Origin: Ensifer sp. PDNC004
GTDB lineage: Bacteria > Pseudomonadota > Alphaproteobacteria > Rhizobiales > Rhizobiaceae
Assembly: GCF_016919405.1 (NCBI RefSeq)
Contig: NZ_CP070353.1
Coordinates: 4,088,504 to 4,152,503, forward strand
DNA length: 64,000 bases
Direction of reading: 5' to 3'
Part shown: positions 5,473 through 51,961 of the stretch, piece by piece
Position numbering within the stretch: position 1 is the stretch's first letter
Layout of the letters: every line of letters begins with the position of its first letter
The notes under the pieces: model-generated
The model's database searches: none
Seen by the model: the letters and a program-made list of their open reading frames with translations, nothing else
What the model was told of the DNA's origin: nothing
Translations under genes and position numbers: made by a program

Positions 5473-6141
5473 TTATTTGGAGATCGAGCCCGTCGTCAGC
5501 TGCACCGGGCGCTGTTCGCCGATGAGTTCGGCGTCGACGATGTAGCGCATCGGTCCCTGCTCGATCGCATCGAAGGGCCAGCAGGTGGCGAGCGCCAGGT
5601 GGTGGCCGCTGGCGGACGCGTTGATGCCGCTTTCATCCCAGCGGGCAACGCGGCTTTCGCCGGCCCGAAACAGGAAGCGACGGCCATCCTTGCGCGTCAG
5701 CACCAGGAGGTCGCCAGGGTTGACGTCCTTCAGCCAGCGAAAATGCGTGTCGCGATGGGCGGCGATGACCGAGGTACCCTCGTCGCCGGGGCGCGGCGTC
5801 GTCGTCAGCCAGGCGGGCCCGAAGGCAAGCGCTTCGCCGCTTGCGCCTTCCAGAACGATCGCCGAGCGGTTGATCCGTGGCGCCGAGATTTCGGCGGCCG
5901 TCTGGAAATCGGCCCAAGGCCAGGGCTTACCATCAGGGCTGCCATGAAGCTGCGCCTCGAAGGTGCGCTTCAACAGCACCTGCGAGACCTCAGCCTTGGC
6001 CTTCATGTAGAAGCCCTTACCGATCAGAAGCAGACCGGCAAGGGCAATGAGCGCGATGACCGCGAGCACGATCGTTTCGACCGCCGAGAGGCGGGCGAGA
6101 AAGCCCGGCCGTGGCGCGGACTGATCCTTGTCAGCGGCCAC
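5473..6141 (-). CDS. Class GN sortase
   Basis: 222 aa Gram-negative sortase, a membrane-anchored cysteine transpeptidase. One N-terminal transmembrane segment lies at about 22-41. The catalytic triad is visible: His129 in IAAHRDTHF, Cys187 in LALATCWPF and Arg199 in MRYIVDAEL. I chose GTG 6141, preceded by GGAGTGCGCCGCC, rather than ATG 6225, because the longer form would run through the coding end of the target gene and adds an unlikely Arg/Ser-rich leader. Its start overlaps the end of the upstream target gene by 11 bases, indicating one operon and a dedicated enzyme-substrate pair. Confidence 0.88.
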   Translation of the reverse strand: MAADKDQSAPRPGFLARLSAVETIVLAVIALIALAGLLLIGKGFYMKAKAEVSQVLLKRTFEAQLHGSPDGKPWPWADFQTAAEISAPRINRSAIVLEGASGEALAFGPAWLTTTPRPGDEGTSVIAAHRDTHFRWLKDVNPGDLLVLTRKDGRRFLFRAGESRVARWDESGINASASGHHLALATCWPFDAIEQGPMRYIVDAELIGEQRPVQLTTGSISK

Positions 6142-34735: not shown

Positions 34736-34811
34736 GGGCCTGTAGCTCAATGGTTAGAGCCGGCGGCTCATAACCGCTTGGTTGGGGGTTCGAGTCCCTC
34801 CGGGCCCACCA
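34736..34811 (+). tRNA. tRNA with anticodon CAT (Met or lysidine-type Ile2)
   Basis: 76-base cloverleaf with encoded CCA. Acceptor GGGCCTG / CGGGCCC (one G-T), D-arm GCTC/GAGC, anticodon stem GGCGG/CCGCT with loop CTCATAA (anticodon CAT), T-arm with GGTTCGAGTCC. Automatic annotation would say tRNA-Met. The anticodon-arm/variable-loop pattern (CTCATAA..CGCTTGGT) resembles E. coli ileX, so tRNA-Ile2 read after lysidine modification is an equal candidate. Its 3' end abuts the prophage integrase and probably is the attachment site. Confidence 0.95.
34783..34811 (+). other. Probable attL core in tRNA 3' end
   Basis: The T-arm and acceptor 3' part of the tRNA are the usual crossover site for a tyrosine integrase encoded directly next to it and pointing toward it (57 bases away). 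No second copy exists in the window; the partner attR should lie past 64000. Confidence 0.6.
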
Positions 34812-34868
34812 ATATACAACGATTTCAATTAGTTATGCGGTGGTTAGCCATGTAGGTTAGCCAATGGG

Positions 34869-35963
34869 TTAGCCAGCCGGTTTTTTCGGGTGAACGCGGC
34901 GGGTCAGGCGTGTCATTGCGTCCCTCGCTAACCGCTTTTGTTCGGCCTCACGGCTGTAGAGTTCAGCGTGCGCGATGTCGTCATGACCAAGGGTGTCCAT
35001 AAGCTGCCGAGTCGTTGCCCCGGTCTCCGCCAACAATTTGCCGAGGGTCTTTCTGAGTCCGTGGAGGGTGCAGCCCTTAGGCATGCCGGCGCTGTGCGTC
35101 CAATCGGCCATGCGGCCCGTCAGAGATTTTTCCGAGAACGGCTTTCCGTAGGCGGTGATGAGCACAAAGTCCCCGTTGCGCTCCAACGGCTCGACGATTT
35201 CGCGCAACATAGGCGTGATGGGCAGGGCAAGCTCCTTGTCGCCCTTCTTCTGTTTGACCATTACGACGCCGCGGCGAAAGTCGAACCAATCCCATCGCAC
35301 GCGTGCGACGTCTGATCGACGATTGCCGAGCCAGAGTGCCAGGCCGTAAGCTGTGCGCGGCGTGCTGCCGAGTGGCCAGCGGGCCTCGAACTTCTCGCGC
35401 TCCTCAATGGTCCATGCCCGCCAGCCCTTGTATTCGGGGCGGTAGTTCATCTTCCACGTCGGGTCGGCCTCGATCCACTCTTCGTCAAGGGCGACATAGA
35501 CCATCTTTCGGATAGTCGTCAGCAGGTGCTTGGCCTTGTGGGGTGTGGCGGCAAAGTGCGCGATAATGCCTTTGATGTGGCGCCGCTTCGCATCCTTCAC
35601 GAGCATATCGCCCCAAACGTCAGGATGGGTATCCACCACTTTTAGCTTCAGGAACTCGTCTGCAAGGCGGGTGTTCTGGTCTTTGGTGGCTGGATCGAAC
35701 ACTAACCATTCCGGCGTCTTCTGAACTCGTTTCCATGCGTCTCTGAAACTGCCTGGGAGAGCCTTGCCGGGCAGATCCACGATTACGGCCGGCTTGTATT
35801 CTCGGCCCTCTACCGCCGCCCTGTAGGCGGCCTCGAACTCCGGCTCGCCGGGAAGGCCTTTAATCTGGATCGTCTTGCCAGCACGACGAAACCGCCAGCG
35901 GGTTTTTCCGTGGCGGTCTTCGTAGGACGAAAGGTAGGGGCGGGGTTCTTGATCTTCGCTCAT
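34869..35963 (-). CDS. Tyrosine-type phage integrase
   Basis: 364 aa site-specific recombinase. N-terminal arm-binding region (RHGKTRWRFRRAGKTIQIKG), a core-binding helix bundle, then the catalytic domain with Arg216 in GNRRSDVARVRW, Lys near 240, His301 and Arg304 in LHGLRKTLG, His327 in LGHDD and nucleophile Tyr336 in HAELYSRE. It inserts and, with the excisionase, removes the prophage at the neighbouring tRNA. It is the last gene of the leftward early operon, 17 bases after the HTH gene. Confidence 0.95.
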   Translation of the reverse strand: MSEDQEPRPYLSSYEDRHGKTRWRFRRAGKTIQIKGLPGEPEFEAAYRAAVEGREYKPAVIVDLPGKALPGSFRDAWKRVQKTPEWLVFDPATKDQNTRLADEFLKLKVVDTHPDVWGDMLVKDAKRRHIKGIIAHFAATPHKAKHLLTTIRKMVYVALDEEWIEADPTWKMNYRPEYKGWRAWTIEEREKFEARWPLGSTPRTAYGLALWLGNRRSDVARVRWDWFDFRRGVVMVKQKKGDKELALPITPMLREIVEPLERNGDFVLITAYGKPFSEKSLTGRMADWTHSAGMPKGCTLHGLRKTLGKLLAETGATTRQLMDTLGHDDIAHAELYSREAEQKRLARDAMTRLTRRVHPKKPAG

Positions 35964-47409: not shown

Positions 47410-48227
47410 CCGCGGTTGATGCACCGAAGCGCGACAGTGTCATGCGGCTCTTCCGGAAGGCTCACCGGGATTGGCCCACGTTTCTCTCCGACAGCGGGCC
47501 CGCGGCAGAGCGGGCGTTCTTCGCGCTCTCCGAGGATGACCAACACGTGGCTGCGGAGCGGCAGGGCGTGTATGTGGCGGCTGTTCGGCGCACCAAGGGC
47601 AAGATCTGCAGTTTCGCCATCTACTGCAAGGAGCGGCGTTGGGAGAAGCTGCCCGAGGACGACGAGCGAGATGCAGGGAAGGCATCCGTCGTCCTCTGCA
47701 AGCCCTTCGGGCCGGTTTGGGCGGGGCTGCGGATGCTGCGACTGCTCAAGGGGCCAGTGGATGTCGAGATACCTGCCGATATCAGGCAGACGGCGCGCAG
47801 CACGTTTGAGCGCCTTTGCGAGGTGAACGACGCGCACGCGCAAGCCTATCTCGCGCGAAAGGGCATCCGCCTCGATGACGACGGTGCCATGATCTTCCCG
47901 ATCGACTTCGAGGGTACTGAGTATCGCAAGCGCGCCCTTGAGACCGGTTACACGGAGGTCAGCCGGCTCGATCGTCTTCGCGGACCCGAGAGGGCGCCTG
48001 CCTGGTGCAGCGTGTTCCTGGAGCTGTGCGAGGCCGTGCCAGTCGGATGCGAGATGTACGAGCGCTGGCGCAGTCATCATGCGGCGATGGTCTGGCCCTT
48101 CGTTCCTGATCCTGCCTCGATGGAAGTCGTTTGGTTCCCGAAAGGTGGGCCGGACGGCCTGAATGAGTTTGAAGCGGCTGCGCGCGCGGCCATTGGCGGA
48201 GATCGGAGCCACAATGATGCAGCATAG
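47406..48227 (+). CDS. Prophage protein of unknown function (273 aa)
   Basis: 273 aa soluble protein, no recognised domain. Features: RAFFALSEDDQHVAAERQGVYV, an aromatic C-terminal part with ELCEAVPVGCEMYERWRSHH and FVPDPASMEVVWFPKGGP. ATGA overlap with the preceding gene supports the start. The last residues overlap the start of the NusG-like gene. Confidence 0.65.
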   Translation: MTAVDAPKRDSVMRLFRKAHRDWPTFLSDSGPAAERAFFALSEDDQHVAAERQGVYVAAVRRTKGKICSFAIYCKERRWEKLPEDDERDAGKASVVLCKPFGPVWAGLRMLRLLKGPVDVEIPADIRQTARSTFERLCEVNDAHAQAYLARKGIRLDDDGAMIFPIDFEGTEYRKRALETGYTEVSRLDRLRGPERAPAWCSVFLELCEAVPVGCEMYERWRSHHAAMVWPFVPDPASMEVVWFPKGGPDGLNEFEAAARAAIGGDRSHNDAA

Positions 48228-48870
48228 GGGAATAGTTGGCGCGCCGATTGCGACCGAATCGAAAGACGGCTTCAGGGATCGGATGCGACGAATCACCGGG
48301 AGCATGCTCGATGAGGGGGCTCTGGTGACGCTCAATTGCCGAATCAACGGCGGGAAAGCGCCTTGGTTTGCTCTTCGGGTGTGGACCGGCCGGGAAAGGA
48401 CTGTGGAAAAAACACTCGAAGAAATGGGTGTTCGGTCGCTTGTGCCTATGCGGAAAGGCCCTGATTACCGTCGTCGCGGTCGCATTATCGAGGGCTCTAT
48501 GATGCCCGTCATCCATGGTTACGTGCTTGTACAGATACTGGGACAGCCCGAGTATCTGACAGGGTTGCAGGGTGTCGAGCACGCCATAGACGTGCTCGGA
48601 GGGTGCGAAAATCCTAGGCGGCTAAGTGATAAAGAGGTCAACAGATTCAACGCGCTTGCATGCGGCGGTCGGTATGACTTCGAGCGTCGCGTCGAGATCG
48701 TTTTGACGGCGGGAGATCGGGTACTCATCACGGACGGGCCGTTCTATGACATGAAGGCCATAGTCGTCACCCCGAGTAGCAAGGGGTACGGAGATGTGGT
48801 GGTCTCGACCAGCATGATGGGACGAGAGGTTCCGGTGACGGTCCCTCTTGCATCGCTCGAAAAGTTATGA
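48214..48870 (+). CDS. NusG-family (NGN + KOW) protein, candidate phage antiterminator
   Basis: 218 aa. After a 47-residue extension, an NGN-like domain (about 48-150) starts APWFALRVWTGRERTVEKTLEEMGVRSLVP and has PVIHGYVLVQI and GVEHAIDVLGG; a KOW domain follows at about 164-218 (VLTAGDRVLITDGPFYDMKA). These are the parts of NusG/RfaH, which bind RNA polymerase and change pausing and termination. ATG 48214 (or 48217) follows CGGAG. It is the last early gene, directly upstream of a hairpin-rich leader, a terminator and the late genes, so late antitermination is inferred. Confidence 0.82.
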   Translation: MMQHRGIVGAPIATESKDGFRDRMRRITGSMLDEGALVTLNCRINGGKAPWFALRVWTGRERTVEKTLEEMGVRSLVPMRKGPDYRRRGRIIEGSMMPVIHGYVLVQILGQPEYLTGLQGVEHAIDVLGGCENPRRLSDKEVNRFNALACGGRYDFERRVEIVLTAGDRVLITDGPFYDMKAIVVTPSSKGYGDVVVSTSMMGREVPVTVPLASLEKL

Positions 48871-48904
48871 GAGTCATTTCGCCATTGGACAAGCTGATGA
48901 TCCT

Positions 48905-49035
48905 GCAGTGAGCCTCTGAGAACGCACGAGAGTGCGGGGAGAAATCCCGAGGTCGGTACACCGGTCAGCCCCAGCCCTGACAGTCTCCCAAGAGACGCAT
49001 CGATTCAGGGTCAGTGCGAAAGCTATGAGCAGACG
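48905..49035 (+). ncRNA. Candidate structured leader RNA upstream of late genes
   Basis: Untranslated segment with consecutive hairpins: CGCAC/GTGCG with GAGA loop (48923-48936), GGGA/TCCC with GAAA loop (48937-48948), GGTCGG/CCGGTC (48951-48966), and an outer CCCTGA/TCAGGG stem (48975-49010) enclosing GTCTC/GAGAC (48983-48996). No reading frame fits. It may be a loading site for the NusG-like protein or a phage RNA of another type. Confidence 0.5.
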
Positions 49036-49038
49036 ACA

Positions 49039-49062
49039 GGCGGCCAATAGGTCGCCTTTTCG
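49039..49062 (+). terminator. Intrinsic terminator before the late genes
   Basis: Stem ggcggcc (49039-49045) / ggtcgcc (49050-49056), one G-T pair, loop aata, followed by TTTT. It lies 13 bases before the HNH start codon, so transcription entering the late operon from upstream must pass it. Confidence 0.72.
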
Positions 49063-49074
49063 CTATCGGGTGTG

Positions 49075-49476
49075 ATGGTCTCAAAGCCTAAGTCATTCCG
49101 GCCGAGCGGCATGCCGTCAGCGGTGCAACGCGAACAGGCGTACGATCGGGAGCGGGATCAGCAGCCGTGGCGGAAGTGGTACAAGACGGCCAAGTGGCAG
49201 AGGGCGCGAGCGGAGTTTCTGGCCGACCCCGAAAACCAGTTCTGTGTTCGTTGCCGAGCCAACGGGCTGCTCAATCCGGGCATCTACCGCAAGGACGGCA
49301 CCCTCGAAACGAACCGCCGCCGCATGCACTTGGTAGTGAACCACGTGCAGCGGCATCACGGTGATGAGATGCTGTTCTGGGACCGGAACAATTGGGAGCC
49401 GTTGTGCCCCGATCACCACGACATCGACGTCCAGGCCGAAGAGCGGCAGGGGACCGGGGGTGGGTCAAAAGTCTAG
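49075..49476 (+). CDS. HNH endonuclease (late operon)
   Basis: 133 aa. The HNH site is VNHVQRHHGD, NNWEPLCPDHHD, with the CVRC zinc pair upstream (QFCVRCRANG). Such proteins lie directly before P27-type terminase small subunits in HK97-like phages and are needed for DNA packaging cleavage at cos ends. ATG 49075 (or GTG 49072) is the first start after the terminator. Confidence 0.9.
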   Translation: MVSKPKSFRPSGMPSAVQREQAYDRERDQQPWRKWYKTAKWQRARAEFLADPENQFCVRCRANGLLNPGIYRKDGTLETNRRRMHLVVNHVQRHHGDEMLFWDRNNWEPLCPDHHDIDVQAEERQGTGGGSKV

Positions 49477-49572
49477 ACCGCCCGAGGGCTAGACCGGTGG
49501 GTGTGCTCGCTCACGTCGCCGCGAAAATAGCGAAATCTTTTTTTTCTGACACGCCAACCGATGGAGGGCGAG

Positions 49573-50199
49573 ATGACACGTGGTCGTAAGCCTGACACCG
49601 ACCAGCAGCAGGCGGACAAAGGTGCGCCCGGAAAGCGGATGACCCAGAAGGACGTTGCAACAGTTCGGTCGAAAAAGGCGGTGGAGCCGATGTCCATCGG
49701 CAACGTCCGTCCGCCGAAGTGGCTCAAGCGGAGCCGCAAGGCTACCGAGGTTTGGAACGATCTGGCGCCGAAGCTTCAGCGCCTCAACCTCCTGACCGAC
49801 CTCGATGCCGGGCCGCTGGCGCGCTACTGTCGCTATGTCGTCGAGTGGATCGCGGCGGACGTGGCCGTCCAGAAGGAGGGTACCTGGTTCGACACCACCG
49901 ATACGAACGGGGCACCGACCAAAAAGCGGCACCCGGCATGGCAGGCCGCGCAGGACATTGAGAAGATGCTGCGCGACTTGGAAGCGACCTTCGGTATGCG
50001 TCCCGACGCCCGTTACAAAATCATGCGCGACCAGGCGGCGGCGCGTGGTCTGGGTGACCTTCCGCTCTGGGGCAATACGCCCGACCGGGATGAGGAGAAA
50101 TCGGGGGATGGTGCGCCGGCAACGACACAGCCCGACCCCGATGACATTATCGGAATTCTTGGCGCCCACAACTCGATGCCTCCCGGCTCGCTGAACTGA
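49573..50199 (+). CDS. Terminase small subunit, P27 family
   Basis: 208 aa. MTRGRKPDTD start and the helical core (PKWLKRSRKATEVWNDLAPK, LDAGPLARYCRYVVEW, YKIMRDQAAARGLGDL) match P27-type small terminases, which recognise phage DNA and start packaging. ATG 49573 follows GGAGGGCGAG; the ATG at 49561 would put this binding site inside the gene. Confidence 0.92.
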   Translation: MTRGRKPDTDQQQADKGAPGKRMTQKDVATVRSKKAVEPMSIGNVRPPKWLKRSRKATEVWNDLAPKLQRLNLLTDLDAGPLARYCRYVVEWIAADVAVQKEGTWFDTTDTNGAPTKKRHPAWQAAQDIEKMLRDLEATFGMRPDARYKIMRDQAAARGLGDLPLWGNTPDRDEEKSGDGAPATTQPDPDDIIGILGAHNSMPPGSLN

Positions 50200-50203
50200 T
50201 GCC

Positions 50204-51961
50204 ATGGAAGTCTCTGCTGTTGCGGTGCAGGCTGCTGCCGGTCATCGGTTGTGGCCGGAACCGGAGTGGGTCAAGGAAGCCGCTGACACCAAGGGGTGGG
50301 CGTGGGTTCGTCTTGCCTGGGAGCGATGCTCCCGCGTAGCCGGTTCTTGGTTTGACGAGGCGAAAGCGGCCGCAGCCGTTCACCTGTTTCCGAAGGTTTT
50401 CCGGCTGACGGATGACCGTTTCGCGGGTAAGCCCTTCCGCCTCGGTCTATGGCAAGAATGCATCGTCCGTCTTCTCGTCGGCTGGAAAGCGCCCATCGAG
50501 ATCGTTGACGAGCAGACCGGCCAACCGGCTTTCGTCCATGTCCGCATCTTCCGGCGCCTCATGCTGTGGGTGCCACGGAAAAACGGGAAGTCCGAGTTCC
50601 TGGCGGCGCTGGCGCTGCTGTTTTTCATTCTCGATGGCGTCGTTGGCGGGCAGGGCTATGTGTTCGCCCGCGACGAAAGTCAGGCCAAGATCATCTTCAA
50701 CAAGATGAAGGCCATGATCAGCATGGCGCCCAATATGGGCGACACGCAGATCTACAAGAAGTCGATCTATCTCCCGAAAATCCGGGCGTTGTTCGAACTT
50801 CTGACAGGAAAGCCCGAGGGAAAGCACGGGAAATCGCCGACCGTCATAGCGGGCGACGAGATGCACGAATGGGAGACGCCGGATCTGGCGAACTTCCTGC
50901 GGCAGGGCACCGGCACCCGATTGGAGCCGATCGAACTCTACGCGTCGACTGCCGGCGTCAAGTCGAACAAGACCGGCTATGCCCTCTGGGAGGAAAGCCT
51001 GTCGATCCTCGAAGGGCGGATCGATGACCCCTCGACGCTGGTTGTTATCTTTGCGCTCGATCCTGATGATGATTGGGCCGACGAAGCGAACTGGCCGAAG
51101 GCAAACCCGTCGCTCGGCATCTCGCCTACGATGCAGTTTCTGCGGCGCGAGGCGGCAATCGCTGCCGATAACCCGCGCGCCGAACAACACTTCCGGTGCT
51201 ACCACCTCAACCAGTGGATCGACGCGGTAACGCGCTGGCTCAGCCTGAAGAAGTGGGATGCATGCGCGACCAATAAGGAAGCCTGGAAGGAATGGCGTGA
51301 CGGGGTCGGGCTTGAAGGGAGAAGTTGTTTCGCAGCCTTCGACGTTTCCTCGAATGAGGATATCACGGCGCGAATTCTGGCGTTTCCACCCGATGACGAA
51401 TTTGATCGCTGGGTTCTGTCGGCCCGGTTCTGGGTGCCATCAGAGACAATCGCGAAGCGGTCGCGACAGGATCGTGTGTCCTATGACAAGTGGCTCGGTC
51501 TGGGGGCGATCGAAGAGACGCCTGGTGATTACGTTGACCAGGACTATGTGCGGAAGGCGCTTTTTGAAGACCTGGAGCGCTTCAATGTTACGCTGATCGG
51601 CTACGACCCGTGGAACGCCACCAAGCTCGTCACCGACATGCAGAAAGATGGAGTCGACGAAAGCCGATTTCAGTTGATGCGGCAGGGCATTCCCACGTTG
51701 GGGGAGCCTACGAAGCTCTTCGAGCGCCTGGTGATGTCCGGTCAACTGGACCACGGCGGCCATCCGGTACTCCGTTGGATGGCGGGCAATGTGGCCGTCA
51801 GGTTCGACGAAAATCTGAACTATGCACCGACTAAAAAGAAGAGCGCCGAAAAGATCGACGGCATCGTTGGCAGTGTCATGGCCGTAGGCCTGTCCATGGC
51901 CGACGACGTCGAAGGGCCGTCGGTTTATGAGCAACGCGGCATTCTGGAGATTGAAGTCTGA
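50204..51961 (+). CDS. Terminase large subunit
   Basis: 585 aa ATPase-nuclease of HK97-type packaging motors. Walker A-like PRKNGKSEF, Walker B IAGDEMHEWE, and a C-terminal RNase H-like nuclease with acidic residues in FAAFDVSSNEDITA and DGIVGSVMA. It threads DNA into the prohead and cuts it. It starts four bases after the small subunit and overlaps portal by TGATG. Confidence 0.95.
   Translation: MEVSAVAVQAAAGHRLWPEPEWVKEAADTKGWAWVRLAWERCSRVAGSWFDEAKAAAAVHLFPKVFRLTDDRFAGKPFRLGLWQECIVRLLVGWKAPIEIVDEQTGQPAFVHVRIFRRLMLWVPRKNGKSEFLAALALLFFILDGVVGGQGYVFARDESQAKIIFNKMKAMISMAPNMGDTQIYKKSIYLPKIRALFELLTGKPEGKHGKSPTVIAGDEMHEWETPDLANFLRQGTGTRLEPIELYASTAGVKSNKTGYALWEESLSILEGRIDDPSTLVVIFALDPDDDWADEANWPKANPSLGISPTMQFLRREAAIAADNPRAEQHFRCYHLNQWIDAVTRWLSLKKWDACATNKEAWKEWRDGVGLEGRSCFAAFDVSSNEDITARILAFPPDDEFDRWVLSARFWVPSETIAKRSRQDRVSYDKWLGLGAIEETPGDYVDQDYVRKALFEDLERFNVTLIGYDPWNATKLVTDMQKDGVDESRFQLMRQGIPTLGEPTKLFERLVMSGQLDHGGHPVLRWMAGNVAVRFDENLNYAPTKKKSAEKIDGIVGSVMAVGLSMADDVEGPSVYEQRGILEIEV

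Follow-up and report, generated by a model that had tools for sequence, protein, structure and literature searches.

A prophage cassette of NusG paralogue, structured RNA and intrinsic terminator as a candidate late-gene switch of rhizobial phages

The window (the whole 64,000-nt stretch of Ensifer sp. PDNC004 DNA that was analysed) carries a prophage in which the gene of a 218 aa NusG paralogue is followed by a structured RNA element, an intrinsic terminator and the genes for an HNH endonuclease and both terminase subunits (Table 1). The paralogue ORF has an overlap of 14 nt with the gene upstream of it. In the region 34736-35963, a tRNA-Met gene (34736-34811) and an integrase ORF of opposite orientation (34869-35963) lie side by side, which likely marks the left prophage end.

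Table 1. Features at the putative early/late border of the prophage (positions in the window).
Feature	Position	Strand	Basis or remark
NusG paralogue (N-terminal helix, NGN, KOW), 218 aa	48214..48870	+	Pfam, NCBIfam, AlphaFold2, structure comparison, homologues
CTTGC motif, end of paralogue gene, candidate -35	48847..48851	+	codon conservation, fixed spacing to RNA
AT-richer stretch, weak candidate -10 (AGTCAT)	48872..48877	+	-10 comparison
Structured RNA element (model R1), likely leader, putative start near 48884	48876..49027	+	172.8 bits; window is a training sequence
RNA 5′ domain	48893..48969	+	pair counts, covariation
P1	48893-48898/48964-48969	+	5′ domain helix
P2	48913-48916/48949-48952	+	5′ domain helix
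P2a hairpin	48923-48927/48932-48936	+	in 5′ domain
P2b hairpin	48937-48940/48945-48948	+	in 5′ domain
RNA 3′ core, shared by every lineage seen	48975..49027	+	alignment A4, pair counts
P3	48975-48980/49005-49010	+	3′ core helix
Inner hairpin of 3′ core	48983-48987/48992-48996	+	
Terminal hairpin of 3′ core	49012-49027	+	
Intrinsic terminator	49038..49060	+	sequence; comparative terminator criterion
HNH endonuclease, first late gene	49072..49476	+	PHROGs
Terminase small subunit (TerS)	49561..50199	+	Pfam, PHROGs
Terminase large subunit (TerL, phrog_9)	50204..51961	+	Pfam, PHROGs

The original prediction, made from the sequence alone, assigned NGN- and KOW-like domains to the product of this last early gene; its coordinates for the ORF hold, and both the AlphaFold2 model and structure comparison agree with the domain assignment. 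The NGN domain scores above the Pfam cut-off and the KOW domain, by sequence, below it. The model, computed from a 66-row alignment (mean pLDDT 88.9), comprises an N-terminal helix (20-44), an NGN domain and a beta-barrel KOW domain, and the solved structures that it matches are NusG and RfaH. As modelled, the protein has the NusG fold, and with an NGN domain and a C-terminal KOW domain it belongs to the NusG superfamily. The predicted beta barrel differs from the alpha-helical KOW of the RfaH type and leaves room for a second fold. A separate housekeeping NusG is present elsewhere in the same genome, and the paralogue scores below the equivalog cut-offs for housekeeping NusG (TIGR00922, 45.7 vs 135.7 bits) and RfaH (TIGR01955, 28.1 vs 144.5 bits) and below the curated cut-offs for LoaP (NF033641, 52 vs 125 bits) and UpxY (NF033644, 58.7 vs 100 bits). 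Public records already label the protein as an antiterminator, and of its 167 homologues 120 are among the matches listed. The transcription antiterminator profile phrog_6386 matches it as well (E 8e-48) and is not specific, with hits in 12 of the 14 control genomes and in 173 of the 190 from the class; it was discarded as a family query because it also recognised housekeeping NusG. One record labelled as a Staphylococcus phage (OR844998.1) contains an ordinary bacterial-type NusG followed by an apparent ribosomal-protein gene and looks like host DNA.

We compared the window with 103 loci encoding relatives of the paralogue on IMG/VR and GTDB contigs, copies of the same contig being excluded. 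The RNA element lies directly 3′ of the paralogue stop codon at all 104 loci; 101 elements are complete as judged by their end motif, one has a changed end (L006) and two are clipped at a contig edge (L035 and L156). The original prediction overlooked this structured RNA in the gap between paralogue gene and terminator. The complete elements comprise 81 distinct sequences, and over their 3240 pairs the mean identity is 0.78 for the element vs 0.63 for the paralogue coding DNA, the element being the more similar of the two in 3212 pairs. Such constant association of the RNA with its own gene would also be expected if it were the site through which the paralogue controls its own gene or mRNA and not the late genes. 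We consider this very unlikely, since a location between stop codon and terminator suits read-through better and since the similarity of the cassette stops exactly at the first late gene.

The helices of the RNA were set by hand from covariation, because the consensus that RNAalifold returned for the 81 distinct elements was poor, and were then counted on two alignments: A3, consisting of the window and 33 sequences outside the training set of the search model described below, and A4, consisting of 52 distinct 3′ cores. On A3, the 30-pair structure has 94.6% of cells paired, a value that falls to 42-47% when the structure is slid by one column. Two-sided changes occur in 14 of these 30 pairs and in 80 cells, vs 22.4 cells in shuffled alignments (0 of 500 shuffles as high as 80), in a comparison whose shuffles ignore relatedness and for which the counted sequences were among those used to propose the helices. 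In P1, the covarying exchanges include G-C to U-A and U-A to C-G, and on A4 two-sided changes affect 9 of 15 pairs. Among the top ten covarying column pairs obtained with no prior structure, six fall in the described helices and four outside. The window leader folded alone is not significant against chance (z -1.63), and an Rfam 15 scan of 48700-49200 returned no known family, its one match reaching 13.1 bits vs a gathering score of 50.

The 5′ part of the element occurs in several architectures, whole elements being reduced to about 110 nt at four loci (L172, L193, L195 and L200). The 3′ core is the most conserved part, and each of the six named phages in the comparison has it (phi2LM21, phi3LM21, Rivra, vB_RleM_PPF1, vB_MseS-P1 and Nsp-JY10). 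At one locus and its relatives (L131), the P2a loop reads CGGTAGC, which we take to resemble the RfaH ops site; the window is without this loop. The record of the Nostoc phage Nsp-JY10 (PP395642.1) carries a rhizobial-type cassette with its RNA (160.8 bits), and its host label may be wrong.

The search model R1 was trained on 35 elements located beside close paralogues (at least 64% identity). With it, 64 of 66 sources (63 of 65 excluding the window) yielded a single copy each, at protein identities down to 29%, and no match was obtained at two loci whose NusG relatives have 26-28% identity (L047 and L048). At the first of these (G034:C10:90015-90599), the 26%-identity paralogue is followed by another possibly folding stretch, perhaps a further RNA type. 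In a genome search with the RNA only, R1 gave hits in 33 of the 297 genomes searched within the family (22 of 109 genera) and in 4 of the 297 searched within the order; two of these four had already come up in the first search. The 3′-core model R2, run on 289 genomes of the class, detected the core in the genome of the window and in none of the 288 others; all searches over more than 40 genomes apply stricter filters by which weak matches are lost. Among the places above 28 bits, 32 of 33 lie directly behind a NusG-paralogue ORF, and at 32 of the 37 distinct places examined this ORF ends -24 to +112 nt before the RNA; not all of these places are new, since some matched genomes contain contigs already used above. 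The five places without a paralogue are L197 (also L245; 46.5 bits), which looks decayed, and four with scores below 26 bits and no paralogue upstream (L207, L208, L243 and L244), which we took as chance matches. RNA distance and paralogue distance are correlated over 74 loci (r 0.775, 0 of 999 permutations), a co-divergence that is partly expected from physical linkage.

This linkage bears on the possibility that the RNA alone modifies RNA polymerase, the NusG paralogue being accessory or active elsewhere. Such an RNA exists in phage HK022, whose put element, as described in the part of PMC9378689 available to us, is structured, acts at the exit channel and requires no phage protein, and the strong conservation of the 3′ core some 12 nt ahead of the terminator would suit a similar mode of action. 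We nevertheless regard a protein-free mechanism as unlikely: the paralogue is directly upstream at nearly all confident RNA places, and a terminator placed just behind an antiterminator that needs no protein would be pointless.

The terminator itself, predicted at 49039-49060 in front of the HNH-terminase genes, begins one base earlier in our analysis and indeed precedes the HNH gene, TerS and TerL. A promoter between terminator and HNH gene, which the original prediction had named among the findings that would refute it, along with a different fold or protein-independent read-through, would find no room in the 14 bases (49058-49071) after the stem. A generic terminator scanner did not have 49038-49060 in its list. 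By an explicit criterion, terminators were recognised in 72 of 83 distinct 120-nt stretches following the element, vs 1.7 expected from dinucleotide shuffles, with a median gap of 12 nt between element and terminator. At least four different terminator sequences occur behind the element; attenuation by alternative base-pairing was rejected, because the same RNA precedes these different terminators. The other 11 stretches have no terminator by the criterion, other DNA following the element. Such DNA seems to be inserted before the late genes at L005, L013, L038, L158 and L161, where no terminator is found within 120 nt, and at L159 the element is immediately followed by a tRNA-Met gene (5797-5873), with a terminator-like hairpin after it.

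An element that comes after a coding gene and is closed by a terminator could also be the 3′ untranslated region of the early operon or a small RNA derived from it, acting in stability or in trans, with the late genes controlled otherwise; both readings predict a short terminated RNA. This explanation appears improbable to us. The first ORF of at least 90 aa starts at a median of 60 nt after the element (80 loci), leaving little space for another promoter, and the terminator is retained, with altered sequence, ahead of late modules that have been swapped.

Judged on representatives, one TerL cluster (43 loci, phrog_9) belongs to a module that often has the HNH gene first, and a second one (31 loci, phrog_15) to a module with a tail or neck gene first; the two modules are unrelated to each other, and neither cluster is in reach at 6 of the 80 loci. 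RNA distance shows no correlation with the terminase module (74 loci, r 0.015), and 117 of 256 pairs of close RNAs stand before different modules. The element, on which these 117 pairs were selected, has an identity of 0.90 in them; the value drops to 0.74 over the following 50 nt (the terminator region) and to 0.54 at 90-190 nt, vs a shuffled baseline of 0.51, and same-module pairs stay at 0.73 over this last interval. By these comparisons, paralogue, RNA and terminator form a cassette that extends up to the first late gene and is swapped as one unit. HNH-terminase modules frequently adjoin cos, and the position of the conserved stretch beside such a module would fit a DNA packaging site (cos or pac). 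This reading is barely credible, given that the same element stands before two unrelated terminase modules, diverges independently of them and consists of nested paired stems with compensatory changes.

At its upstream side, the RNA is preceded by a conserved motif, CTTGC, located at the end of the paralogue gene. The motif is nearly invariant among 111 distinct sequences: its leucine codon is CTT in 101 and keeps TT in seven more, and all 38 sequences of the close group have CTT at codon -7 (the CTT share of 23% has the motif codon counted in). It is kept even at the silent codon position; over the last 20 codons as a whole, fourfold sites are not striking (0.27 vs 0.37), and only the CTTGC codons stand out. 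CTTGC precedes the first GG conserved in the RNA by 38-42 nt in 99 of the 108 cases that could be measured; at loci with a displaced stop codon (L174, L183, L198 and L201), the spacing to the RNA is kept and that to the stop codon is not. The printed sigma-70 consensus of S. meliloti is CTTGAC-N17-CTATAT (PMC2573895, seen in part). A -35 at CTTGC would place the transcription start near 48884, which coincides with the conserved 5′ edge of the RNA. A match of at least 4/6 to CTATAT is present at spacer 18 in 19 of 110 sequences, compared with 11 and 9 at spacers 10 and 12, and the -10 region reads TGAGAGTC in 56 of 110, the window included. The promoter is uncertain because the -10 is weak in the window: we give about even odds to a late promoter that overlaps the paralogue gene at its end, from which the leader would start like that of lambda pR′ behind Q, and otherwise the leader would come from the early promoter.

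The retention of a terminator in spite of its changed sequence, the conserved RNA just ahead of it and the dedicated paralogue are together consistent with antitermination that needs both protein and RNA. We favour, with a probability of roughly 0.7, the reading of the cassette as an antitermination switch for the late genes, in which the paralogue would act through the leader RNA to let polymerase pass the terminator. In the mechanism that we infer, from RNA binding to read-through and its timing, the paralogue would be made from the last gene ahead of the late genes, and polymerase crossing the adjacent leader would produce the structured RNA. Unmodified polymerase would halt at the terminator about 12 nt past this RNA. 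When the paralogue is available, the nascent RNA, likely its loading site, would load or hold it on polymerase, with the NGN domain contacting the clamp and the 3′ core being near the RNA exit channel as polymerase arrives at the terminator; polymerase so modified would continue into the late genes. The original prediction of a NusG-family late switch in place of Q is still the best reading, strengthened by the presence of the cassette before two unrelated modules, and lacked the structured RNA and CTTGC, a motif through which the RNA may be a leader lying close to its promoter.

A more specific version, in which the leader RNA is bipartite, an exchangeable 5′ domain providing specificity between related phages and a common 3′ core touching RNA polymerase as the phage paralogue is loaded, seems to us evenly poised between right and wrong. 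If true, it would join N/nut, Q and put as a further kind of phage late-gene switch, and its protein would be the second RNA-guided NusG paralogue after LoaP. This cassette from prophages of nitrogen-fixing soil bacteria looks, from comparative sequence data, like a new type of late-gene on-switch. As a second case, in phages, it would open RNA-guided recruitment of NusG paralogues to direct tests, with an RNA that is larger, naturally very variable and linked to a clear target operon; rhizobial phages would gain a model of late-gene control and alphaproteobacteria a compact antiterminator.

Part of this arrangement can be recognised in earlier work. In the phiLM21-like prophages, a gene annotated as antiterminator adjoins that of an HNH endonuclease where early and late regions meet (PMC12429752), in an account whose available part names no NusG, RNA or promoter; the records of phi2LM21 and phi3LM21 contain the cassette, and the accessible main text of the LM21 prophage paper (PMC5537653) is without the words ‘antitermination’, ‘NusG’, ‘terminator’ and ‘late genes’. 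Genes similar to rfaH have been noted on prophages (PMC7593976, in the portion seen), and the available text of PMC13015549 is without the word ‘phage’. In Rfam and the portions of the literature accessible to us, we found no description of the RNA, of its linkage to the paralogue or of the CTTGC motif, nor, in that literature, of any phage NusG paralogue paired with a cis RNA.

Among the known systems, RfaH is recruited by non-template DNA at ops; for the present protein, the KOW domain is predicted as a beta barrel. In lambda, the Q gene is followed by the pR′ promoter, a leader and the terminator tR′ before the late genes, and the prophage locus has a like succession of putative antiterminator gene, possible promoter, probable leader and terminator. 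The lambda protein is unrelated, however, and needs a DNA site, which sits within the late promoter (PMC7969949, as far as available), whereas a structured RNA is conserved here. HK022 put is likewise a phage RNA that suppresses termination in cis at the exit channel (PMC9378689, available part) and differs in needing no phage protein, whereas the present RNA is tied to a NusG paralogue. LoaP of Bacillus velezensis, as described in the accessible part of PMC12691694, is a NusG paralogue encoded beside its target operon (dfn) that requires a leader RNA hairpin for passing the intrinsic terminator behind it; the LoaP element is one small UNCG-type hairpin in antibiotic operons, whereas the phage element is a multi-stem RNA of about 150 nt. 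By analogy, LoaP is the nearest precedent and lambda Q the nearest circuit, and the cassette is best read as a putative Q/pR′/tR′-like switch built from a NusG paralogue and an RNA.
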